DNA of 52,491 nucleotides from a virus. The notes beneath the pieces were generated by a model. That model was given only the letters and a program-made list of their open reading frames with translations. It had not been told where the DNA came from and did not search any database. This document shows positions 1 through 52,393 of the stretch, one piece after another. Where the stretch lies: positions 1 through 52,491 of the IMG/VR virus record IMGVR_UViG_3300045107_000189; one strand, given 5' to 3'. The stretch's first letter is position 1. Each line of letters opens with the position of its first letter. A program made the position numbers and the translations under genes.

Positions 1-151
1 GGTAGTCGTGCGTGCCCGCGGAGTCGATCTCGATCCAGTGCGCATCGCCCGCCTCGACGACGAGCTTGCGGAAAACGCCTTCCGCGGTCGGCGACCTGCA
101 GATATTGCCCATGCACAGGAACAGGATGCGCGCTTTTTCCCTATGAATCAT
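1..151 (-). CDS. Low-molecular-weight protein tyrosine phosphatase, 5' part with phage-supplied start (runs off window)
   Basis: Read leftward from ATG at 151 this encodes [20 protein letters not shown] followed by [17 protein letters not shown] and on to the window edge. C-M-G-N-I-C-R-S is the C-x5-R(S/T) phosphate-binding loop of LMW protein tyrosine phosphatases, with nucleophile C13 and R19. Residues I9 to G15 are encoded by the att core; residues 1-8 come from phage DNA. The native start survives at the other prophage end (GTG at 52393, giving M-R-I-L-F-L-C). An in-frame GTG at 184 directly behind GGAG is an alternative start. The fused gene appears intact and could be active, under whatever promoter the phage end supplies. 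Confidence 0.85.
105..127. repeat. attL core, 23-bp direct repeat
   Basis: The sequence starting TTGCCCATGCACAGGAAC is repeated exactly at 52365-52387, and the flanks differ on both sides. On the minus strand it encodes I-L-F-L-C-M-G plus two bases of the next codon, the start of the phosphatase active-site loop. The lambda-type integrase gene lies next to the other copy, so these are the left and right attachment cores. Confidence 0.92.
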
Positions 152-18554: not shown

Positions 18555-20630
18555 TCACCTGTCGCTGTTGTTCAGCTGCGCCGCGAGGCGCGCGATGTCG
18601 TTCTCGGCCTCACGCTTCTGCTCCGGCTGCGCTGCCGGCGGCTCGCGCGTGAGCGGGTCCGTCGCCCACGGCGGCGGCTTCGTCCAGTCGATGCGCTGCG
18701 CGCCGAGGATCAGGCACGCCGCGCGGCCGTATACGTAGAGGTCGAAGGCCTCGTTGCGCGCGCTGTCCGTCTTCGTGTAGCCCTTCGCCGTGCGCGTCTC
18801 GGCGGTGAGCTCATCGAAGTACTTCCGGTCGACCCACAGCGGGAAGTGCGAGTACCCCGGCCCCGGCTCGTCGCGCGCGAGATCTCCGACGACCGCGTCC
18901 TTCAGCACCACCGTGTTCAGCTGCCACACGGGAACGTCGCCGCGGCCGCCGGCGCGCCGGTCCGCGCGCTGCTCCGGGTACGTCTCGCGGATGATCGGCG
19001 CGTTCGGCGTGGGATCGCCACGGACCAGGCGGATCCCAGGGGCGCGCCCTTCCCGCTTCATCTGCCGCCAGAAGTCGTACGCGTTCGTCGTGACGCCCGC
19101 CTTGCCGCCCGAGTCGCACACCGTGAAGTGCACGCCGAGCGTCTTCGTCGGGTCGTCCGCCAGCGGGTACCGCTTCGCCATCACCTCGTCGCGGATCAGC
19201 AGCCAGTCCTCGAGGTACGCGGCCGGCTCCAGGCCCGCGTTCCGATCGCCTTCCCGGCGGCGACTCGCCGTGATCTCCCACCGCTCGACCAGCCACCGCT
19301 CGAGACCGGTGCCCCAGCCGTGCGTCTCACACACGAACCGATTGCCCTGCACGTCCACGGCCGCGGTCAGGAAGCGCACGCCGGCCGGGACGTGCCCCTC
19401 CGGCCAGCTCTCGCGACGTTCCATGAACAGCTCCGCGTTGCGCCTCTTCGCGGCCGCCCGCGGCACGTACGGCGCCGCCTGGTCGGTGTTCACCGTGAAC
19501 AGCAGCGCTTCCTCTCCGCCGCTCTTCACGTACTCCTGCAGCGCCTGCAGGTACTTCAACAGCAGCGCGTCCCACGTCTGGAAGGCAGCGCCGATGCCGC
19601 CGAGCCAGTACGAGGCGATGTTCGTCTGCCGGCGCGTGCCGACGATCCGGCCGCTCTCGTCGAACGTCTCGCCCTCGTGCAGCCAGCGCCCGCCGCTCTT
19701 CAGCAGCCGCCGATCCGAGGTTTCGTGCACGCCGCCGCACACGCGGCAGACCATGCGCGCAAGCGTGCCCGCGAGGTCGACCAGGTCGGCCGTGAGCACC
19801 ATCTTCTCGAGCTCGTCGTCCGGCGGCATCGCGAATGCGCGGAGCCCCGGGGCGACGTGCATGTACGAGTTGCAGTGCTTGCACGGCCAGAAGTGCGCCG
19901 CGCGCGTACCGCGGTTGTACAGGGACACGATGCCGCCGCGCACCGGCGGCGCGTCGTGCGGCGATTCCGGCTTCCAGCGTGCGAGATCGCCGGTCAGCTC
20001 GACCGCCGGGGAGCTCTCCGCGAGCACCTTGCCGCGAGACATGTATGTCTCGGTTCGCTTTCCGGCGAGGTCAAAGAGCGGACCCTCGCCATCGACGTCG
20101 TCGCGATTCTTCGGCCGGTCGTAGTCTGTGATGACCACGTACTGGATCGTCTTGCCCGACAGCTGTGCCACCGACGGCCAGCCCAGCTTCAGCACTACGC
20201 CCGACCGGAAGAACTTGTCGAACGTATTGTCGTCGCGAGCCCGCGGCGAGATCTTCGACGCGATGTCCGGCGAGTTGCGGATCATCCGATCGAGGTCCAT
20301 CCGCGAGAAGTCTCGCGCGACGTCCTGCGTCATCTGGATCAGCAGCATGTCGCCCGGTGCGCTCGTCACGTCGTAGCAGACGGTGCCGAGCACGAGCGTC
20401 ATCGTCTTTCCGGACCGCGCCGGACCCACGAACACGACGCCGCGGTACTCGCGGCTCGCCATCATGTTGAGCGGCTCGATCAGTTCCGGCGTGAGCTCCG
20501 GCGTCCACGGACCCTTCTCGGTCCGCATGTACCGCTCGCAGGCCTCCGCCGGCGTGATGCGGCGGGACGGCAGCAGCACCTCCGCGGTCGCGGCCGCGCC
20601 GGACCGCGCCGAGAAGAATGGCGCCTCCAC
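18555..20630 (-). CDS. Terminase large subunit, gpA family (691 aa)
   Basis: The N-terminal ATPase has Walker A G-P-A-R-S-G-K-T (residues 69-76) and a Walker-B-like Y-V-V-I-T-D-Y-D-R-P. A zinc-ribbon-like region follows with C-K-H-C and C-R-V-C, usual for gpA. The C-terminal nuclease region begins around F-L-T-A-A-V-D-V-Q-G-N-R-F. The protein cuts and translocates the genome into the procapsid. Length is near lambda gpA (641). It is followed by the gpW-like gene and preceded by the small subunit. Confidence 0.94.
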   Translation of the reverse strand: MEAPFFSARSGAAATAEVLLPSRRITPAEACERYMRTEKGPWTPELTPELIEPLNMMASREYRGVVFVGPARSGKTMTLVLGTVCYDVTSAPGDMLLIQMTQDVARDFSRMDLDRMIRNSPDIASKISPRARDDNTFDKFFRSGVVLKLGWPSVAQLSGKTIQYVVITDYDRPKNRDDVDGEGPLFDLAGKRTETYMSRGKVLAESSPAVELTGDLARWKPESPHDAPPVRGGIVSLYNRGTRAAHFWPCKHCNSYMHVAPGLRAFAMPPDDELEKMVLTADLVDLAGTLARMVCRVCGGVHETSDRRLLKSGGRWLHEGETFDESGRIVGTRRQTNIASYWLGGIGAAFQTWDALLLKYLQALQEYVKSGGEEALLFTVNTDQAAPYVPRAAAKRRNAELFMERRESWPEGHVPAGVRFLTAAVDVQGNRFVCETHGWGTGLERWLVERWEITASRRREGDRNAGLEPAAYLEDWLLIRDEVMAKRYPLADDPTKTLGVHFTVCDSGGKAGVTTNAYDFWRQMKREGRAPGIRLVRGDPTPNAPIIRETYPEQRADRRAGGRGDVPVWQLNTVVLKDAVVGDLARDEPGPGYSHFPLWVDRKYFDELTAETRTAKGYTKTDSARNEAFDLYVYGRAACLILGAQRIDWTKPPPWATDPLTREPPAAQPEQKREAENDIARLAAQLNNSDR

Positions 20631-29472: not shown

Positions 29473-29700
29473 TCAGCGCGCGCGGATCGCGTGCGGCAGG
29501 TGGATGAGGTCCTGCAGGCCCGCCGCCTGCAGTCGAACGCCGTGCGCCTGGACGACCGGCTTGCCCATGATCGGGTTGCCGTTGTCATCGACCCACGCGA
29601 CATCCAGGAACGTGCCGTCGTGCGCGCGGATCGAGAGGGCGTGCCCATTCGTGCGCACCTCCGCGACGGTCTTGCCGCGGAGGCGCATCGTCAGGTCCAT
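29473..29700 (-). CDS. Small phage protein (75 aa)
   Basis: ATG at 29700. The product MDLTMRLRGKTVAEVRTNGH has two repeated beta-like segments (L-S-I-R-A-H-D-G-T-F-L-D-V-A-W-V-D-D-N-G-N-P-I) and no membrane segment. It is the first gene of the leftward virion-like block and faces away from the PEP-CTERM gene across a 131-bp gap, which should hold both promoters or a terminator. Function unknown. Confidence 0.6.
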   Translation of the reverse strand: MDLTMRLRGKTVAEVRTNGHALSIRAHDGTFLDVAWVDDNGNPIMGKPVVQAHGVRLQAAGLQDLIHLPHAIRAR

Positions 29701-29831
29701 TCGGGATTTACCTGTGTCGGCGGGGTTTACAGCCCGCGGGACGAGTGCTGGTAAGTCTCTGAAGCGAAACGGTGCGCACGTTTCGTGCATGGGGACCGGC
29801 AAGAGCCGGAACACCGGCCAGGGAGGCCAAC
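29701..29831. promoter_or_regulatory. Divergent intergenic region before the PEP-CTERM moron, with inverted repeat
   Basis: GAAAC (29766-29770) and GTTTC (29780-29784) flank the perfect palindrome GTGCGCAC (29772-29779), making a near-symmetric 19-bp element about 50 bp before the PEP-CTERM start. A -35-like TTTACA lies at 29726-29731, but no good -10 is found 16-18 bp further. The palindrome is a candidate operator controlling the moron. Confidence 0.35.
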
Positions 29832-30470
29832 ATGCGTCGAGTCATCGTGGCAGCCGCGCTGCTGCTCGCCTGCGTGCCCGTGCAGGCCGCTCCGATCAAG
29901 TACGCGTTCTCCGGGGTGATCGACACCGGATCCGCCGCGTTCCTCACGTACCCCGATTCCTTCCCGCTCGCGCTTGGCGATCGCTTCGACGGGACCGTGA
30001 CCTACGACACCGAGAACGCCGGAGCGATTGGCGGCGTTACGTGGCTCTTCGCGGTCGGATTCGAGATCAGCGTTCCGGGCAAGCTGGCGGTATCGCAGTC
30101 GATCACCAGCGCGGCCACGACGTTCCGCTACGGGGTAGACGGAAACGAGGCGTCGATCTACACGAATGGCCCCACGCAGTCGAAGTTGCCAGATGGGTTC
30201 CTCGACGACGTGTACCTGACGTTCCGCCTGCCGAGCACGCACAGCGCCGGGCCGCTTCCAGATGATCCGATGCTCGATGCCATCGGCACTGGCCAGCTGC
30301 GGCTTTGGTTCCTGTCGATCGACATCCCGCCCTGCACCCCTGCATGCTCCGGCTACTCGTCGGTCTTCGGCACCGTCACGAGCGTCACGCGTGTTCCGGA
30401 GCCGGCGACGCTAAGCCTTCTCGCACTCGGGCTCGGCATCGTAGTACTACGTCGGCGCCGCGTTCGATGA
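29832..30470 (+). CDS. PEP-CTERM sorting domain protein, secreted (212 aa), moron
   Basis: ATG at 29832 follows GGGAGG by 5 nt. The protein has a Sec signal peptide (M-R-R-V-I-V-A-A-A-L-L-L-A-C-V-P-V-Q-A-A), a beta-rich domain (about 22-180, I-K-Y-A-F-S-G-V-I-D-T-G-S-A, F-D-G-T-V-T-Y-D-T) and a C-terminal PEP-CTERM tag: V-P-E-P near residues 188-191, hydrophobic L-S-L-L-A-L-G-L-G-I-V-V-L, then R-R-R-R. In exosortase bacteria this tag leads to processing and surface or matrix export. The gene lies against the flanking leftward operons, which marks an accessory (moron) gene expressed in the lysogen. The host must supply exosortase; none is encoded here. Confidence 0.88.
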   Translation: MRRVIVAAALLLACVPVQAAPIKYAFSGVIDTGSAAFLTYPDSFPLALGDRFDGTVTYDTENAGAIGGVTWLFAVGFEISVPGKLAVSQSITSAATTFRYGVDGNEASIYTNGPTQSKLPDGFLDDVYLTFRLPSTHSAGPLPDDPMLDAIGTGQLRLWFLSIDIPPCTPACSGYSSVFGTVTSVTRVPEPATLSLLALGLGIVVLRRRRVR

Positions 30471-30958
30471 GCGAGGAGTCTGTACCGCTGGCCGAGTACT
30501 GCACAGCGATTGGCACAGTTCTGCACAACGCGACGACCGCGGAGTTCTTCCTGTTCGCCGCATTCTGGCGCCTCGCTGGCTGCAACGTGCACATCGCTCG
30601 AGCGATCTTCTTCGCTTCGGAGTCGCTCCACGCGAAGCGGCACTTGCTCCATCGTCTTTGCACCGTCGTGGGAGACGACGAGGACAGAGCGATCATCGAC
30701 GATATCGCGAAACACGTTCAGCGCGCGAACAACTTGCGCAGCGACGTTGCTCACGCCATCCGAACCGCTGGAGAAGACCCGGACGGTCCATCCACGCGGT
30801 CCAACGCACGCCAACTTGAACAGCCACACCGGCCAATCACTCGTGCCTACTTGGGCTCTCTCGTCGATGGCACGGCCGACGCCGGCTTCCGGGCGTCACA
30901 GGCTTGGGAACGCCTCTGCAAGAAGCGCGGCTTATCCCCAGGGTTGCCGAGCTTCTAG
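30467..30958 (+). CDS. Protein with HEPN-like R-x4-H motif, coupled to the PEP-CTERM gene (163 aa)
   Basis: ATG at 30467 overlaps the PEP-CTERM stop (ATGA), so translation is coupled. The protein is helical: L-H-N-A-T-T-A-E-F-F-L-F-A-A-F-W-R-L-A-G near residue 20, H-A-K-R-H-L-L-H-R-L, and N-N-L-R-S-D-V-A-H-A-I at residues 88-98, giving R91-x4-H96. That motif within a helical bundle recalls HEPN RNases, common in toxin and phage-defence systems, but other helical families share it. No signal peptide. The pairing with an exported protein is unusual. Function unproven. Confidence 0.6.
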   Translation: MSEESVPLAEYCTAIGTVLHNATTAEFFLFAAFWRLAGCNVHIARAIFFASESLHAKRHLLHRLCTVVGDDEDRAIIDDIAKHVQRANNLRSDVAHAIRTAGEDPDGPSTRSNARQLEQPHRPITRAYLGSLVDGTADAGFRASQAWERLCKKRGLSPGLPSF

Positions 30959-30983
30959 CGCGAAGCTTCAGCGCGAAGAAAGC

Positions 30984-31003
30984 GCGCGGGCTCGCGCCCG
31001 CGC
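30984..31003. terminator. GC hairpin after the moron operon
   Basis: GCGCGGGC (30984-30991) and GCCCGCGC (30996-31003) are perfect arms around a 4-nt loop, 26 bp after the stop of the R-x4-H gene and before the leftward operon's last gene. No T run follows on either strand, so termination would be weak; it may end the convergent transcripts. Confidence 0.45.
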
Positions 31004-31051
31004 TGAGGTAGGCGCGGCGCGCTAGGGAAGCGCGGCGCTGCCGTAGAACGG

Positions 31052-31219
31052 TCAGGGGCCCCGTAGCGCCGGGCGCGCCGCGCACGCGGCCGCGCGGCGG
31101 AGGTTCTCCGCGCGCAGGCCGCGATAGTCGCCGGGTGGGTACACGGGGCGCAGCAACTCGCGAAGGATCGCCTGCGCGGCCTCGCTCGACGGCGAGCGGA
31201 CGTGGGGCAGACGAATCAC
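31052..31219 (-). CDS. Small hypothetical protein (55 aa)
   Basis: GTG at 31219 follows GGAG by 5 nt. The product starts MIRLPHVRSPSSEAAQAILR, basic, with P-V-Y-P-P-G-D-Y-R-G-L-R-A-E-N-L. It is preceded by a terminator-like stem that abuts its ribosome site. It is the last gene of the early leftward operon before the moron. No family is recognised. Confidence 0.5.
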   Translation of the reverse strand: MIRLPHVRSPSSEAAQAILRELLRPVYPPGDYRGLRAENLRRAAACAARPALRGP

Positions 31220-31230
31220 ATGCGCGCTCC

Positions 31231-31260
31231 AGAAACGACGACGCCGGCGCGGGGCCGGCG
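31231..31260 (-). terminator. Intrinsic-terminator-like stem upstream of the 55-aa gene
   Basis: On the minus strand CGCCGGC-CCCGC-GCCGGCG (31260-31242) is followed by TCGTCGTTTCT and then GGAG of the next gene. Stem plus T-rich tail fits an intrinsic terminator for the PR-type early operon at the Q-gene end. The junction TTTCTGGAG is identical to the one upstream of the tail tube gene. Confidence 0.6.
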
Positions 31261-31355
31261 TGCGTGGACACGAAGACGAGCTTGCCTGTGATCGCGACTC
31301 TAAGGGCTTCGCAACGGGGCTGCACGACAAGAATCCTCAGGATTCCTCGGGCGAG

Positions 31356-31778
31356 TTATCCGTAGGATTCTTCGGCCGCGGAGCCGGCCCGCAGCAGCCC
31401 TTTCAGGTGACCGCGCGCCTCGGCAAGCGTCTCGCGGAACCGTGCCTCCGACCAGCGCACGGCGTCGAGCTTCGGCTGGATCTTCCCGGGCACGACGTAC
31501 CAGAGGTCGATCGCGACGCGCTCGGGCTCGTCGAGAGACTTGAAGGCCAGATTCACCTCGAGGAGCGAGCCGGGGTAGACCTCGGGGAAGTGCTGGCCGC
31601 CGCGCGACCCGCCCCCGGCCGCGACGCGCAGCTCCTTCACCACGCCCAGCGTGCTGACCATTCGGCCGAGGTAGTCGTCCGGCAGCTTCGGGTGCGCGAA
31701 GCCCATGACCTCGCGCCGCACTCGCGCCCACGGCTCGAGCAGCCCATCCAAGGAATGCTGGCGACGACGTCGGCTCAC
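31356..31778 (-). CDS. Protein in the Q (late regulator) position (140 aa)
   Basis: GTG at 31778 overlaps the DUF1064 stop. The product has a basic start (S-R-R-R-R-Q-H-S-L), a glycine-rich loop (A-A-G-G-G-S-R-G-G-Q-H-F), and helical segments (L-V-N-L-A-F-K-S-L-D-E-P-E-R-V-A-I like, W-S-E-A-R-F-R-E-T-L-A-E-A-R-G-H-L-K). It is the last large gene before a terminator-like stem and the virion genes, where lambda has antiterminator Q. Its pattern of an E-R-x-A-I-D-L-x-Y helix followed by a C-terminal helix suits ArpU/RinA/Q-type late regulators, but family is not certain. Confidence 0.5.
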   Translation of the reverse strand: MSRRRRQHSLDGLLEPWARVRREVMGFAHPKLPDDYLGRMVSTLGVVKELRVAAGGGSRGGQHFPEVYPGSLLEVNLAFKSLDEPERVAIDLWYVVPGKIQPKLDAVRWSEARFRETLAEARGHLKGLLRAGSAAEESYG

Positions 31779-32212
31779 CTCAGGTCCTCTCGCGTCAGAA
31801 GGTGGATTTCGATGCCGTAGAGGCGCTCGACGGTCGCGATCTTCGTGCGCGACGTGTCGGTCAGCACGCCCTTCACGTCCTCCCATCGGATAGTCCAGTC
31901 GAGCTGGCACACGCCGAAGTCGACGACGTATCGCACGCGCGGTGCGATCCAGAACGGCACCTGGCGGAGGACGTAGCGGATCTGGCCGGCCGCCTGGAGC
32001 AGCTGCAGCTGCCCGTAGCGGCGCGCCTCGAGCTTCGAGTCGAAACGCCATCCGTCGACGATGATGGCCTTCGCGGAGTACTTCGATGTCGCGCGCGAGC
32101 CCGCCGCCTCGGGCATCAGGGAGCGCCGCGGCGGCTCGGCCGCGAGTTTCTGCCGGATCTGCTGCACCATCGCAGGCGGGAGATCCGCGAGGCTCGCGCC
32201 GCGGCGGCTCAC
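31775..32212 (-). CDS. DUF1064-family nuclease, PD-(D/E)XK type (145 aa)
   Basis: The core reads D-S-K-L-E-A-R-R-Y-G-Q-L-Q-L-L (near 60), then Y-V-V-D-F-G-V-C and W-E-D-V-K-G-V-L-T-D-T-S-R-T-K. E, D and E-x-K are spaced as in PD-(D/E)XK nucleases of DUF1064, which are found among phage replication genes and proposed to resolve branched DNA (a RusA-like job). GTG start overlaps the upstream stop. It lies between replication-type genes and the Q position, as expected. Confidence 0.8.
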   Translation of the reverse strand: MSRRGASLADLPPAMVQQIRQKLAAEPPRRSLMPEAAGSRATSKYSAKAIIVDGWRFDSKLEARRYGQLQLLQAAGQIRYVLRQVPFWIAPRVRYVVDFGVCQLDWTIRWEDVKGVLTDTSRTKIATVERLYGIEIHLLTREDLR

Positions 32213-32445: not shown

Positions 32446-32618
32446 GGCTCGGACCAGAGGGAGACCAGGAGGATCACGATCACCGCGAGCGTGACGAGGT
32501 CGCCATTCGACGTCGCCGGTGGCCGCGCGCGCGGGTAGCGGTTCTCGGTCAGGAAGCTGAGCGCGCCGATCGCGCAGGCGCCGAGAATCAGCGTGAGGAT
32601 CCACCGGATCTCCATCAT
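32442..32618 (-). CDS. Small membrane protein (58 aa)
   Basis: The product has two hydrophobic helices: W-I-L-T-L-I-L-G-A-C-A-I-G-A-L-S-F-L (5-22) and V-T-L-A-V-I-V-I-L-L-V-S-L-W (41-54), linked by a charged loop (E-N-R-Y-P-R-A-R-P). Overlapping starts and stops on both sides support it. A membrane protein inside the replication operon may act in superinfection exclusion, which is speculation. Confidence 0.58.
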   Translation of the reverse strand: MMEIRWILTLILGACAIGALSFLTENRYPRARPPATSNGDLVTLAVIVILLVSLWSEP

Positions 32619-33316
32619 TCGACCGGCTCCTGCAGCTCGTCCAGCGTCGCTCTGCGCCCTTCCTCGTCGAGGACCACGGAACGGTACATCCCGAACGCAT
32701 CGCGGACGGTGAGGGTCCAGGTGCGGCGTACGCGCGCGAGTGGCTGCCCCTCGATGAGATCGCCGCCTGGCTGAAGCACGAACGACGGCTCGTCCGGCGC
32801 GGTGCCGGTGGACGGCGCGGCGTCGCGGGTCTCGTCGAGGAAGGCGTCCGAGTGCGGGGCGGGCGGCGCGAGCTCCGCGGCCGCCTTCCGGTGCTTCGCC
32901 GCGGCGATGCGCTTCCCGCAGCACACGCGGCAGACGGTCTTTCGTCCGCCGCTCGCGGTGCGCGGGAACTCGTGCATCGGGAGATCGCGCTCGCAGTCGA
33001 CGCACACCTGCGTGTCGTGCGGGATCTCGGCGCTCGCGGGCGCGGGCTCGTCTGAGGGCGCTGCGGCAGCCGCGCTCGCCGGCGCGCGCGGAGGTGGTGG
33101 CGCCGGCGGCTCCCGCAGCGGCGTGATGACGCCGGCGGCCAGCCGCCACACGCCCTCGGCGACGAGTACGCGGCCGCTGCGCTTCAGCTCGACGAGCTTC
33201 ACGCGGATCGCGTCGAGGGCGATGCGCGGGCCGAACTCGAGCTGCAGATCCGTCTCCGTCATCGGCTCGCGCGAGAGTGCCGCGAGGATGCGATCTGCGA
33301 GCGTCGGCGCGCTCAC
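32615..33316 (-). CDS. Winged-helix plus zinc-finger protein (233 aa)
   Basis: Residues 1-60 look like a winged helix (L-A-D-R-I-L-A-A-L-S-R-E-P-M-T-E-T-D-L-Q-L, V-E-L-K-R-S-G-R-V-L-V). A proline/alanine linker follows. Then comes a four-cysteine finger (C-V-D-C-E-R-D-L-P-M-H-E-F and C-R-V-C-C-G-K-R, about 115-150), and a C-terminal domain (W-T-L-T-V-R-D-A-F-G-M-Y). The combination suggests a DNA-binding accessory or regulatory protein for replication. It directly follows two genes downstream of the initiator-like gene. Family not recognised. Confidence 0.6.
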   Translation of the reverse strand: MSAPTLADRILAALSREPMTETDLQLEFGPRIALDAIRVKLVELKRSGRVLVAEGVWRLAAGVITPLREPPAPPPPRAPASAAAAAPSDEPAPASAEIPHDTQVCVDCERDLPMHEFPRTASGGRKTVCRVCCGKRIAAAKHRKAAAELAPPAPHSDAFLDETRDAAPSTGTAPDEPSFVLQPGGDLIEGQPLARVRRTWTLTVRDAFGMYRSVVLDEEGRRATLDELQEPVE

Positions 33317-47840: not shown

Positions 47841-47914
47841 GCGGGTATGGCCGAACGGTCAGGCACGAGGCTTCCAACCTCGCTACGCGAGTTCGACTCT
47901 CGCTGCCCGCTCCA
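47841..47914 (+). tRNA. tRNA-Gly (anticodon UCC), with encoded CCA
   Basis: The acceptor stem GCGGGTA (47841-47847) pairs with TGCCCGC (47904-47910). The D stem is GCC/GGC. The anticodon stem CGAGG/CCTCG encloses the loop CTTCCAA, with anticodon TCC at 47873-47875. The T stem is GCGAG/CTCGC with loop TTCGACT. Discriminator T and CCA (47912-47914) are encoded. It reads GGA (and perhaps GGG). It lies in the rightward early operon between protein genes; no att repeat is attached to it. Confidence 0.93.
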
Positions 47915-48562: not shown

Positions 48563-48942
48563 GCGCGTGCGGTGCCTGCTGTGCCTGCGGATACGCGGCC
48601 CCCCTCCACAGCGAGGAATGCCCCGAGCTACACCTTGCGATCGCGTCGGAGTTGGAACGCGCTCTGGTGCGCCGCGTCGTCGCCGAAGTGTGGCGGATGA
48701 TCCCCAATGGCACGGACCCGTATGCGGCGGGCTTCGGCCTCGCGGTGGATGAAATCGCGGTACGGCTGCAAGCGGCGTGGGGCGAGGAGCCGACAGAAGC
48801 CGCGGCTTGGGCACATGTGGCGCCTGACACGAAGCCCGCGCAGGCCGATCAAACGACAGCGATTCCATGTGTGCGCTGCGGCGGTCCGGACGGGCCGACC
48901 TGTGCGGCGTGCGAGGAAGCCGTGAACGGACCGAGGTACTGA
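48559..48942 (+). CDS. Cysteine-rich early protein (127 aa)
   Basis: GTG at 48559 follows AGGAGG 6 nt upstream and overlaps the previous stop. The N-terminus (C-G-A-C-C-A-C-G) and the C-terminus (C-V-R-C-G-G-P...C-A-A-C) carry CxxC pairs, probably one or two zinc-binding modules around a helical middle. Function unknown. Confidence 0.6.
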   Translation: MSACGACCACGYAAPLHSEECPELHLAIASELERALVRRVVAEVWRMIPNGTDPYAAGFGLAVDEIAVRLQAAWGEEPTEAAAWAHVAPDTKPAQADQTTAIPCVRCGGPDGPTCAACEEAVNGPRY

Positions 48943-48944
48943 TC

Positions 48945-49193
48945 GTGAGCGATCTTCACGAACTGCGGAGCTACGTCGAGGCCGAGATCGCCGAGTGCGA
49001 CAAGACCATCGGGTCTAACGCATCGGCCGGCTGGATGGTTGAGGACGCGCGCGACGAGCGGCGCGAACTGCGGCGGAAGCTCGAAGCTATCGAGGCCGTT
49101 GAGCAGATCGCACGGCAGATGGAGGCATCGAAGCACCGTCGCCGGATACCCGGAGCACCTGTCACGAAGTCTCCGCCTCAGGAGGGAGCATGA
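48945..49193 (+). CDS. Hypothetical helical protein (82 aa)
   Basis: GTG at 48945. Charged helical product (H-E-L-R-S-Y-V-E-A-E-I-A-E-C-D, D-E-R-R-E-L-R-R-K-L-E-A-I). Likely coiled coil. No family. Confidence 0.55.
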   Translation: MSDLHELRSYVEAEIAECDKTIGSNASAGWMVEDARDERRELRRKLEAIEAVEQIARQMEASKHRRRIPGAPVTKSPPQEGA

Positions 49194-49390
49194 GCACAAA
49201 CGATCCCGCGCTCGACTTGGCGTGGGCGCAGGGGCGCTACGCAATCGCGAGCGAGTGGCACGAACAGTGCGTGAAGCAGTTGCAGCGCGCGGTGCGCGAG
49301 CAGCGCCAGGCGCGTCTCGATATGGAGTCTGCGCAGGCGAAGATCCGGCAGGCGCGCGCGGATAACTCAGAGCTTGGTCGGGAGGGGTGA
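49190..49390 (+). CDS. Hypothetical helical protein (66 aa)
   Basis: ATG at 49190 follows GGAGGG and overlaps the previous stop. Product rich in A, Q and R (W-A-Q-G-R-Y-A-I-A-S-E-W-H-E-Q-C-V-K-Q-L-Q-R-A), coiled-coil-like. No family. Confidence 0.55.
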   Translation: MSTNDPALDLAWAQGRYAIASEWHEQCVKQLQRAVREQRQARLDMESAQAKIRQARADNSELGREG

Positions 49391-49680
49391 TGGGACTCGA
49401 TGCACAGCCGTCGTATATGACGGAGCCGCCTGCGGTGCTCATCGCGCCGAATGGGACGGTTGGGATCTTCGGGGGCGACACGCCCGCAGGAACGTGCCGC
49501 GACCACGCAGCCGCGTCGCTCGCATGGGCTATCGCGGTGTTGACCGAGGAGCTGCAACGGACGATTCAGGCGCCCGGTCATGGCAACGCGAGCGTTGAAC
49601 CGATGTTCGCGCTGCATGAGGCGGCAGCCGCCGTCATCGACGAGAGCAGCGATAGTGACAGCGCATCCGAGGAGCGATAA
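49390..49680 (+). CDS. Hypothetical early protein (96 aa)
   Basis: ATG at 49390 follows GGAGG and overlaps the previous stop; GTG three bases upstream is possible. The product has P-P-A-V-L-I-A-P-N-G-T-V-G-I-F-G-G-D-T-P-A-G-T and A-A-S-L-A-W-A-I-A-V-L-T-E-E-L. The C-terminus is acidic and serine-rich. Function unknown. Confidence 0.55.
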   Translation: MGLDAQPSYMTEPPAVLIAPNGTVGIFGGDTPAGTCRDHAAASLAWAIAVLTEELQRTIQAPGHGNASVEPMFALHEAAAAVIDESSDSDSASEER

Positions 49681-49893
49681 ATGCCGAGGCTACCCAGCGA
49701 CAAGACCATTACCGCGAACCTGCGGCGCGAGAACAACCGGCTCCGCAAGGAAGTGACGACGACGCGCGCAGCCGCCGAGTCCTACCGCGTTCGCGCGACG
49801 CGGGCCGAGCAGGAAGTGTCCGACTGGAAGCGCCGGTTCGACGCGCTGCTGGAACGTAGGGCCGCTGCTCTCAGCCCAACTGATTCAAGGTAA
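49681..49893 (+). CDS. Hypothetical coiled-coil protein (70 aa)
   Basis: ATG directly follows the previous stop. The product is a charged helix (A-N-L-R-R-E-N-N-R-L-R-K-E-V-T-T-T-R-A-A-A-E-S), with leucine/asparagine heptads. Function unknown. Confidence 0.55.
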   Translation: MPRLPSDKTITANLRRENNRLRKEVTTTRAAAESYRVRATRAEQEVSDWKRRFDALLERRAAALSPTDSR

Positions 49894-49901
49894 CCGAGTC
49901 C

Positions 49902-50147
49902 GTGAACGAACGAGCGTTCCGAAAGCGCCTGGACTGGATGATGGGCATTGAGCCGCTGGGCAGGTTTCGGCGGTTCTCCATGTCCAGCGACTATGCGAAT
50001 TCGTACTCGCTCCGGCCGAGCTCTGCGCGCGACTGGACGAGCCGCTTTTCGTACGAGCGTGCCGGATATGACTTCGAGGACGCATGGGACATCTGGCTGT
50101 CCCGGCGCCCGCGATCAACGGTCCCGACTGGAGCTCCGCACGCGTGA
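49902..50147 (+). CDS. Hypothetical early protein (81 aa)
   Basis: GTG at 49902. Aromatic, basic product (R-L-D-W-M-M-G-I-E-P-L-G-R-F-R-R-F-S-M-S-S-D-Y, W-T-S-R-F-S-Y-E-R-A-G-Y-D-F). No family. Overlaps the next gene by GTGA. Confidence 0.55.
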   Translation: MNERAFRKRLDWMMGIEPLGRFRRFSMSSDYANSYSLRPSSARDWTSRFSYERAGYDFEDAWDIWLSRRPRSTVPTGAPHA

Positions 50148-50329
50148 CCGATGGGGCTCTCCACCGAACCGTCCGGGAGTGCGGGAACCCGCGCTGCCGG
50201 GCGCTCTGGCTCGAGGATCCGCGCGGCCGCTGCCCGGACTGCGTCGGGAAGCTCGGCGGCGGCTGGACGTGCACGCCGCGCATCGCGCGCGTGCCGCCGG
50301 TTCGCGCGCCGCGGAGGAAGAAGGCGTGA
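50144..50329 (+). CDS. Small zinc-ribbon protein (61 aa)
   Basis: GTG at 50144 overlaps the previous stop. The product has C-G-N-P-R-C-R-A-L-W...C-P-D-C-V-G-K, a single zinc ribbon with a basic tail (R-A-P-R-R-K-K-A). It may bind nucleic acid. Function unknown. Confidence 0.58.
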   Translation: MTDGALHRTVRECGNPRCRALWLEDPRGRCPDCVGKLGGGWTCTPRIARVPPVRAPRRKKA

Positions 50330-50331
50330 CG

Positions 50332-50573: not shown

Positions 50574-50801
50574 ATGAGCGGCGAGCTGCTCCCCCTGCAG
50601 GTCTGGGCCGAACGCGTGTACGGCGAGAACGCTCCGTCCATCGTGACGCTACGCGCCTGGGCGCGGGACGCCCGCATCCAGCCGGCGCCAGAAAAGCACG
50701 GGCGGACGTACTTCGTGCCCGCCGGCGCGCGGTACGTCGAGCCAGGACGGAAGCCGCGGAAGCGGCTAGTCTCCCGCCTCTATGGCTCCGAGAATGCGTA
50801 G
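50574..50801 (+). CDS. Excisionase, lambda Xis-like (75 aa)
   Basis: The pattern L-P-L-Q-V-W-A-E-R-V-Y...T-L-R-A-W-A-R-D-A-R-I-Q-P-A-P-E-K-H-G-R-T-Y-F-V fits the Xis/Exc winged-helix fold (W-A/N-x-R...V/L-R-R-W-x-R-x-x-x-I-x-P-x-P-x-K-x-G-R). It binds the att arm and directs integrase to excision. It overlaps the integrase start by 20 bp, an arrangement shared with lambda. Confidence 0.82.
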   Translation: MSGELLPLQVWAERVYGENAPSIVTLRAWARDARIQPAPEKHGRTYFVPAGARYVEPGRKPRKRLVSRLYGSENA

Positions 50802-51879
50802 ACCGGACCAGCGAGGCCTGCCGCCGCACACGCGGGAGCGCGACGGCTACTACTCGTGGCGGGATCCGCTCACCGGGAAGGAGTACGGCCTCGGGCGCGA
50901 TCGGCTCCGCGCGATCTCGGAGGCGATCGAGGCGAACATGCGCATCGCCGCGCAGCTCGAGCAGGAGCGGCCGCGGCTCGTCGATCGACTCAGCGGCGAC
51001 GGCGACCGCACGTTCGGCGCCTGGCTCACCCGCTACGACACGTTCCTCGGCACGCTGAAGCTCGCGGAGAACACCCGCCGCGCCTACAAGTCGCTGTCGA
51101 AGCGCGCCGGCGAGCTGCTCGGCCGCGAGAAGCCGATCCGCCGCATCACCGCGCTGGACCTCACGGCCGCGTTCGACGCGGTGAAGGCCGAGGGCAAGGA
51201 GCGCGCGGCCCAGGCGCTGCGCTCGTGGCTGAAGGACTGCTTCCGCCAGGCGGTGGCGGATGGCTGGATCGACGAAAGCCCGGTGCGCGCTACGCGCGCG
51301 GTGCAGGTGGAAGTCAAGCGCGCGCGGCTCACGCTCGAGGTCTTCCGGCAGGTCTACGCGTCCGAGATCCCAGCCTGGCTGCGGAACGCCATGGCGCTCG
51401 GCCTCGTGACAGCGCAGCGCCGGGAGGACATCTCCCTCGCCCGGTTCGCAGACGTGCGAGACGGCGGCTGGTGGGTCGAGCAGACGAAGACGAAGAACCG
51501 GGTGTTCCTGCCGCCCGAGCTACGGCTGGAGGCGTTCGGGATGAGCCTCGACGAGGTCGTGCGCCAGTGCCGGACGACGGGCGTGCTGTCGAAGCACCTC
51601 GTGCACCAGGTGCAGCCCTTCGGCAACTCGCCGGTGGGCTCGCGGATCTGGAAGGACACGATCAGCCGGCGCTTCTCGGACGCCGTGGAGGCTCTGCAGC
51701 TCGACTGGGGCGACCGCGCGCCGCCGACGTTCCACGAGATCCGCAGCCTCTCGGAGCGGCTCTACGCGGCGCAGGGCAACGTCAGCACGCAGGAGCTGCT
51801 CGGGCACAAGGATCCGCGCTCCACGCGGCTGTACCACGACTCGCGCGGCGCGGAGTGGGTGAAGGTGCGGGTGGGATGA
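50782..51879 (+). CDS. int: Tyrosine integrase, lambda Int type (365 aa)
   Basis: ATG at 50782. The N-terminal arm-binding domain (R-R-P-D-Q-R-G-L-P-P, G-Y-Y-S-W-R-D-P-L-T-G-K-E-Y-G-L-G-R-D-R) closely follows the lambda Int pattern. Core-binding and catalytic domains follow, with R213 (T-A-Q-R), K in Q-T-K-T-K, H318 and R321 (H-E-I-R-S), H342 (L-L-G-H-K-D) and nucleophile Y351 (R-L-Y-H-D-S-R-G). Full length, all catalytic residues present. It acts on the 23-bp core in the phosphatase gene. Confidence 0.95.
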   Translation: MAPRMRRPDQRGLPPHTRERDGYYSWRDPLTGKEYGLGRDRLRAISEAIEANMRIAAQLEQERPRLVDRLSGDGDRTFGAWLTRYDTFLGTLKLAENTRRAYKSLSKRAGELLGREKPIRRITALDLTAAFDAVKAEGKERAAQALRSWLKDCFRQAVADGWIDESPVRATRAVQVEVKRARLTLEVFRQVYASEIPAWLRNAMALGLVTAQRREDISLARFADVRDGGWWVEQTKTKNRVFLPPELRLEAFGMSLDEVVRQCRTTGVLSKHLVHQVQPFGNSPVGSRIWKDTISRRFSDAVEALQLDWGDRAPPTFHEIRSLSERLYAAQGNVSTQELLGHKDPRSTRLYHDSRGAEWVKVRVG

Positions 51880-52324: not shown

Positions 52325-52393
52325 CTAGCGACGATTTTCCGGGCGAGCGCCTGCTATTGGTACTTTGCCCATGCACAGGAACAGGATTCTCAC
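52325..52393 (-). pseudogene. Remnant of native phosphatase 5' end
   Basis: GTG at 52393 with GGAG 6 nt upstream starts M-R-I-L-F-L-C-M-G, the expected N-terminus of LMW tyrosine phosphatases. Past the att core the frame runs K-V-P-I-A-G-A-R-P-E-N-R-R into a stop at 52325 (22 residues). This is the displaced native start of the gene whose body lies at the left window edge. Confidence 0.85.
52365..52387. repeat. attR core, 23-bp direct repeat
   Basis: Exact copy of 105-127. It ends the phage and starts host DNA: the native GTG start and its ribosome site lie immediately to the right. Confidence 0.92.

Follow-up and report, generated by a model that had tools for sequence, protein, structure and literature searches.

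The window analysed here is an IMG/VR virus record of 52,491 bases with a GC content of 69%. Its plus strand carries a gene for a PEP-CTERM protein of 212 aa (29832..30470) and a gene for a protein of 163 aa read from an ATG (30467..30958), the start of the second overlapping the stop of the first as ATGA. The PEP-CTERM protein begins with MRRVIVAAALLLACVPVQA and ends with VPEPATLSLLALGLGIVVLRRRRVR. Its C-terminal sorting tail (30393-30467) lies above the curated cut-offs of both PF07589 (25.2 versus 20.7 bits) and TIGR02595 (28.7 versus 16), by which the assignment is beyond doubt. The predicted signal peptide consists of MRR, a hydrophobic run at residues 4-15 (Kyte-Doolittle mean 3.18) and an AxA-like VQA end; residues 4-15 and the tail are the hydrophobic peaks of the protein, whose fold model was unusable (pLDDT 39.5). 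GGGAGG at 29821..29826 (+) is the likely ribosome-binding site. The gene caller used in this analysis began the PEP-CTERM gene at 29847 rather than 29832 and did not select the 163-aa ORF, which is taken as real because relatives of it were found. Given the ATGA overlap, this second gene is probably translationally coupled to the first. Residues 91-96 of its product, referred to below as the HEPN-like protein, read RSDVAH (R91-x4-H96, 30737-30754). These coordinates, the tail scores and the motif confirm the arrangement that a sequence-only reading of the DNA had described, namely a PEP-CTERM gene overlapped by an ORF with an R-x4-H motif.

Both genes oppose their called neighbours, which lie on the minus strand, in agreement with the moron-like position against the flanking operons proposed earlier. 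The nearest leftward gene found by gene calling (29473..29700, -) is divergent from the PEP-CTERM gene. On the other side the moron is flanked by a Q-like antitermination gene (31356..31721, -), followed by a Holliday junction resolvase gene (31775..32170, -; phrog_190, 6.9e-24). The Q-like gene has no PHROG match of its own; it is named from its 33% identity (E 2.6e-11) to a gene of another viral contig, L079:2307-2759, for which phrog_79 ('anti-termination protein Q-like') was matched with E 2.5e-4. A terminator-like hairpin (30984..31003, -) separates the Q-like gene from the moron, with weak statistics (two such sites in the region versus a shuffle mean of 0.9). Third-position GC is 0.81 and 0.74 in the two moron genes versus 0.87-0.96 in the eight phage genes compared, which is consistent with later acquisition of both. 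Further along, 32615-33316 gives a weak match to a Lar-like restriction alleviation family (phrog_5558, E 0.0039).

The window is a complete temperate prophage, as had been proposed from the sequence. It contains a tyrosine integrase (50794..51879, +; PF00589, PF09003; phrog_7244), an excisionase (50574..50801, +; PF07825, 3.6e-14) and, in its leftward-transcribed part, the portal, maturation protease, capsid, tape-measure and terminase families, among them the terminase large subunit (18555..20630, -; phrog_15, 2.2e-196). Identical 23-bp attachment cores lie at 105..127 and 52365..52387, the left one within the 5' end of a host gene that we take, from its reading frame, to encode a low-molecular-weight protein-tyrosine-phosphatase (LMW-PTP). 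About 104 bases of host sequence are thus left at each end of the window. In a betaproteobacterial contig (L023) a related integrase (51%) adjoins an LMW-PTP gene, so the attachment gene seems common to both; from this integrase kinship our guess is that the host is a betaproteobacterium or near kin. The prophage also holds a tRNA-Gly (tcc) gene (47841-47914), which is probably cargo since the attachment site is a protein gene, and a stretch of about 1.8 kb (48563-50331) in which no genes were called; beyond it come a small ORF transcribed leftward and then the excisionase gene.

Relatives of the HEPN-like protein were sought with HMM searches of whole-genome samples that overlap in part. A truncated relative, L035, was found among 296 genomes (E 1.9e-5) and is judged real, and a full-length one, L093, among 200 genomes (E 1.8e-17, 26% identity). 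A two-row profile then found L097/L098 in 217 genomes (E 2.5e-15), and a three-row profile found L099/L101 and L100/L102 in 398 genomes (E 6.1e-9 and 1.5e-6); a further 399 and 369 genomes yielded no convincing relatives. Among matches at E up to 0.01, only L035 was kept from the five in a 399-genome search and the eight in the 296-genome search, and only L093 from the three in the 200-genome search; those dropped had E values of 3e-4 or weaker and were fragment alignments, probably non-coding ORFs or sequences without the R-H motif. No relatives were found by tblastn against phages and plasmids at E 0.01 (at E 10 plasmids gave nothing, and the phages gave three records with E 4-7 that were put down to chance), by pattern and tblastn searches of viral contigs and species genomes, in 17 terminase-related viral records, or in viral contigs scanned with the two- and three-row alignments. 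Three matches in eight integrase-related records (E 0.03-0.2) contained an internal stop and were dropped, and L093 had no relatives among plasmids and phages. By our own reading, the ORF adjoining L093 looks like an XRE regulator. The relative in genome G1246 adjoins a 309-aa ORF (L098:3687-5562) that we read as transposase-like, a hint that the family, small as it is, may be mobile.

The R and H of the motif are invariant in all five aligned members (RSDVAH, RNDLAH, RNEFAH, RNDLTH and RNEFNH), with N after R in four of the five, and the window protein is only about 25% identical to its two nearest relatives. The three-row alignment has 14 invariant columns, including R91, A95 and H96. By itself the motif is no evidence for HEPN, since shuffles of the protein carry Rx4H in 54% of cases and Rx4-6H in 90%; the HEPN assignment of the sequence-only reading therefore draws its support from the conservation of R and H in the four divergent bacterial relatives and not from the motif as such. 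A single-sequence AlphaFold2 model (mean pLDDT 82.8) predicts helices at residues 8-37, 41-50, 54-68, 71-102 and 126-154 and places RSDVAH in the last third of helix 71-102, next to a low-confidence stretch (104-122) that may be a disordered loop. In the accessible text of Anantharaman 2013 (PMC3710099), members of the HEPN superfamily are small helical proteins with R-polar-x3-H near the end of a helix, followed by a loop to the last helix, and the modelled topology and motif position of the 163-aa protein agree with this description. The same text describes an acidic element, Ex3[KR], in many but not all HEPN families; alignment positions 52-57 here read [EDN]x4[KR], and Ex3[KR] in that form is absent.

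Named families gave no corresponding match. No Pfam HEPN profile matched the window protein with a threshold of E 1, or two of its relatives with a threshold of E 10, and neither Pfam, NCBIfam, PHROGs nor PADLOC contained a convincing family for it; the PADLOC models matched neither moron protein at E up to 10. A PDB sequence search gave no convincing matches. Fold searches with the model returned a viral model, A0A4Y5TZQ9 (probability 1.00, TM 0.54), and no HEPN chain in their match lists. The model topology agrees with the HEPN fold; for a helical bundle, the lack of a HEPN chain in the fold searches is not decisive. The genes beside it are the PEP-CTERM gene upstream and the Q-like gene downstream, with no MNT nucleotidyltransferase gene as in HEPN/MNT toxin-antitoxin pairs. 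The protein accordingly resembles the superfamily as presented in the accessible text of PMC3710099 in size, helical content and the R-polar-x3-H near a helix end, and differs from it in matching no named profile and in lacking an MNT antitoxin or other known partner.

It is possible, at odds clearly below even, that the 163-aa protein is a structural or regulatory helical bundle in which the R-H pair is incidental, so that it would not be an RNase. The unmatched Pfam HEPN families, the frequency of the motif in shuffles and the missing Ex3[KR] form would all fit such a bundle; the invariance of R and H in five members at this low identity, the N that follows R in four of them and, in the model, the position of the motif before a loop, as in the HEPN proteins of PMC3710099 so far as its accessible text describes them, argue against it. 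On the conservation of R and H in the relatives together with the model, it is fairly likely that the protein is HEPN-like, and its RNase activity is putative.

Upstream of the PEP-CTERM start codon lies a PrsR-enhancer-like element, GTCGGCGGGGTTTACA (TGTCG-N6-TTTACA; 29716..29731, +), the last base of which is at -101; GTCG-N6-TTTACA matches once in the whole window, with 0.01 expected. A degenerate sigma-54-like element, GCGCACGTTTCGTGCA (29774..29789, +), follows in the right place (-58) without the first G of the -24 GG. Its score of 4.7 falls just short of the 95% point of shuffles (4.9). A search for sigma-70-type promoters from 29600 to 31400 gave none. The accessible text of Haft 2006 (PMC1569441) reports that 99 of 167 PEP-CTERM genes of proteobacteria are preceded by a 17-nt motif ending in TTTACA, a spacer with a mean of 63 nt (32-92) to a sigma-54 element and a mean of 71 nt (23-221) from there to the start, and proposes PrsR as the enhancer-binding regulator; RpoN dependence of one such gene has been demonstrated in Aquincola (PMC9850573, accessible text). 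The window element fits motif 1 as worded in the former source, and the spacings fall within the ranges given there, provided that the degenerate element represents the sigma-54 half.

The GTCG half of the motif was derived in this work, first from viral loci including the window and then from chromosomal genes. Among 26 chromosomal PEP-CTERM genes from four genomes (29 loci fetched, three left out for want of a usable ORF), GTCG-N6-TTTACA precedes five, and 20 have a sigma-54-like site that agrees with the consensus TGGCACG-N4-TTGCW in 8 or more of its 12 bases; two of the three omitted loci also carry GTCG-N6-TTTACA. At the distance where the window has its sigma-54-like element, the viral contig L079 reads GTGCACAATTCGTGCA. 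The upstream 115 nt of the two loci are alignable (score 24, versus -5.5 for the best among 500 shuffles), and the two PEP-CTERM proteins show hardly any alignment outside signal and tail. A GCAC-N5-GTGC dyad is found on the sigma-54-like element of the window (29776-29788), L079 and L086 alike; as it occurs three times in the window, it may be either a coincidence or an operator.

Viral contigs carry PEP-CTERM genes repeatedly. A DNA pattern scan for VPEPATLxLL found 49 stretches on 48 viral contigs, and in all but one of them (L068) the pattern continues into a hydrophobic-Arg tail and a stop. The encoded proteins form several unrelated groups, the largest with 21 members. The window protein itself has no match in the viral contigs and, with the threshold at E 10, none in 50,697 phage records, nor did the PEP-CTERM proteins of L080 and L070 match any of those records at E 0.001; a single plasmid match to the window protein (E 4) was dropped. 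In a subset of contigs, which as IMG/VR records can carry host flanks, the surroundings of the PEP-CTERM gene were checked for phage genes, with the following found nearby: terminase and an Rz-like spanin (L070), a Q-like protein and Holliday junction resolvase (L079), endolysin and spanin (L172), a CI-like repressor (L170), tail sheath and tape measure (L196), endolysin and holin (L189), integrase (L165) and terminase (L153). Neighbours at L143 and L056 had no PHROG match, and at L184 there was only a family of unknown function. The sequence-only reading had found a PEP-CTERM gene surprising as prophage cargo; by this recurrence, such genes are not unique to the phage of the window.

For the 31 viral loci with both neighbours called, the PEP-CTERM gene is co-directional with both in 23, opposed to both in four (L049, L056, L070 and L079) and mixed in four. 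The 119 neighbours of these loci match 81 PHROG families (E 1e-4) with a largest count of 2, and with such scatter a single preferred slot is not claimed. L079 repeats the slot of the window, its opposed PEP-CTERM gene adjoining Q-like (33% identical) and resolvase genes. L070 has terminase, portal and capsid genes homologous to those of the window, and its opposed PEP-CTERM gene lies beside the Rz gene. Two PEP-CTERM genes stand side by side in L152:2988-4340 and in L167:7143-8673, both viral contigs. In a recurrent group of viral PEP-CTERM loci (L044, L053, L054, L057, L077, L080 and L091) the gene that follows is a small ORF of 62-74 aa touching the PEP-CTERM stop, for example MSEEPTRLWLWKNGDHYLAF in L057 and L080; the HEPN-like profile does not match it.

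Upstream sequences were compared for those 44 of the 49 loci in which 200 nt or more precede the predicted start codon; without near-duplicates 36 remain, the window included. TTTACA occurs in nine of the 36 (300 shuffles: mean 1.1, largest 5), and TTTACA combined with the sigma-54 arrangement occurs in five, the window not among them (shuffle mean 0.02, largest 1). The 449 other genes of the viral PEP-CTERM loci have TTTACA in 2.9% of cases and the full arrangement in none. Sigma-54-like sites alone (at least 9/12) are weaker evidence, being present in six of the 36 loci with a shuffle mean of 1.4 and a largest value of 6. Since TTTACA is limited to 9/36, many of the viral genes must use other promoters. 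A separate scan of viral contigs, which took no account of the encoded proteins, looked for the complete promoter pattern and found 68 matches in 67 stretches, 59 of them with a complete downstream ORF. A PEP-CTERM gene follows in 27 of the 59 (24 non-redundant). Random positions in the same loci that have an ORF gave 43 of 1693, a rate inflated because the tail criteria were loose and because true PEP-CTERM genes were among them; the antisense side gave one PEP-CTERM gene. L144:2484-3379 has two divergent promoter copies with a PEP-CTERM gene after each, and in L196 (7789-8922), a contig with tail genes, a 377-aa ORF with the PEP tail pattern lies beside a promoter-linked PEP-CTERM gene.

The exosortase family PF09721 matched neither the window nor any of 27 other viral records tested. 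Among five bacterial genomes that encode a related integrase, one, G019, has an exosortase match; its related integrase adjoins the same host gene as that of the window. PEP-CTERM matches number 13 in G019 and 4 in G018. The other four genomes gave no exosortase match, and at least two of them are MAG fragments.

In our judgement, by a moderate margin of belief, the locus is probably a moron that serves a temperate tailed phage in lysogenic conversion and borrows the exosortase and the regulon of the host. The intact gene, its sorting tail, its place in a complete prophage, the enhancer-like element and the repeated occurrence of such genes in viral contigs are direct observations on which this interpretation builds; the degenerate sigma-54 half, the restriction of TTTACA to 9/36 viral loci, the co-directional setting of 23/31 viral PEP-CTERM genes, the lack of matches to three PEP-CTERM proteins among the phage records and the four integrase-related genomes without an exosortase match speak against it. 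Under lysogenic conversion, host PrsR with sigma-54 would turn on the phage gene alongside the matrix-protein genes of the host, Sec would export the product and host exosortase would process it. The protein would then enter the cell surface or exopolysaccharide matrix, where it could change adhesion or flocculation and perhaps mask phage receptors. The HEPN-like gene would be a passenger, picked up together with the PEP-CTERM gene or beside it, encoding a stand-alone putative RNase with a function of its own.

A recent, functionless pick-up of the PEP-CTERM gene from the host chromosome, kept by chance together with its promoter, would account for the third-position GC below that of the phage genes, for the host-type enhancer element and for the degenerate sigma-54 half. 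We hold it to be unlikely, as the ORF, signal-like start, tail and ribosome-binding site are all intact, L079 has a very different protein in this slot behind a leader that can be aligned, and such genes recur in diverse viral contigs.

The coupling of the two genes had also been taken as a hint of a two-part system of surface protein and RNase, an idea that the co-occurrence searches did not sustain. HEPN-like relatives were found in none of 47 other viral PEP-CTERM records at E 0.1, with the window as positive control; the five-row profile gave nothing below E 0.029 against 12,809 ORFs of other fetched loci; and no PEP-CTERM tail was present within 3-15 kb around the five HEPN-like loci. Being absent from all other loci searched, the pair is not called a conserved system, and its status as one is not supported; the coupling may still be real in the phage of the window. 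A joint defence, in which the surface protein would sense or block a phage on arrival and the HEPN-like RNase would then cut phage RNA or kill the cell, is improbable: the ATGA overlap, the shared atypical composition, the motif kept in relatives and the assignment of HEPN domains to abortive-infection systems in the accessible text of PMC3710099 favour it, and the co-occurrence results for both genes and the lack of PADLOC matches weigh against it.

Lysogenic conversion can be extended to a bolder conjecture, which we rate as very doubtful. Temperate phages would repeatedly have tapped the exosortase pathway via PrsR/sigma-54-enhanced matrix genes, so that a lysogen remodels its surface when the host builds biofilm and thereby shuts out rival phages; in the window, the coupled HEPN-like RNase would serve as an inner second line if the barrier fails.

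Among described systems, the locus comes closest to three, each compared from its accessible text. Like the PEP-CTERM/exosortase (EpsH) system with PrsK/PrsR and sigma-54 (PMC1569441), the window gene has a signal-like start, a PEP-hydrophobic-Arg tail and a TTTACA motif; unlike that system, it lies in an exosortase-less prophage, has a degenerate sigma-54 half and is overlapped by a HEPN-like gene. With the Ltp lipoproteins (PMC3952083) and P22 SieA (PMC10883804) it shares an envelope-directed protein encoded as its own unit in a temperate phage, and it differs from them in the predicted sorting by host exosortase and in the host matrix-regulon element, its role in exclusion being putative. 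The floc-forming protein PepA of Aquincola tertiaricarbonis (PMC9850573) is likewise encoded by a PEP-CTERM gene with an RpoN-type promoter and an upstream enhancer; PepA lies upstream of prsT in a bacterial genome and has been demonstrated experimentally, whereas the window protein is known from its sequence alone.

The accessible text of Haft 2006 (PMC1569441) mentions neither phage nor prophage. PEP-CTERM/exosortase and phage appear as separate topics in the accessible text of PMC12642866, PMC4886054, PMC9012009, PMC8929069, PMC4897644 and PMC6491731, and a fosmid table in PMC3630121 lists, uncommented in the portion available, a PEP-CTERM ORF adjoining a prophage-integrase ORF. No description of phage-borne PEP-CTERM genes was found in the open-access literature searched, a scope outside which most subscription papers and bioRxiv fall. 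To our knowledge, the role of most PEP-CTERM proteins is open. Phages that keep PEP-CTERM genes, some with a host-regulon promoter, would show that such proteins pay for themselves. If the interpretation as a lysogenic-conversion locus is true, a phage can plug cargo into both a regulon and a protein-sorting machine of its host.
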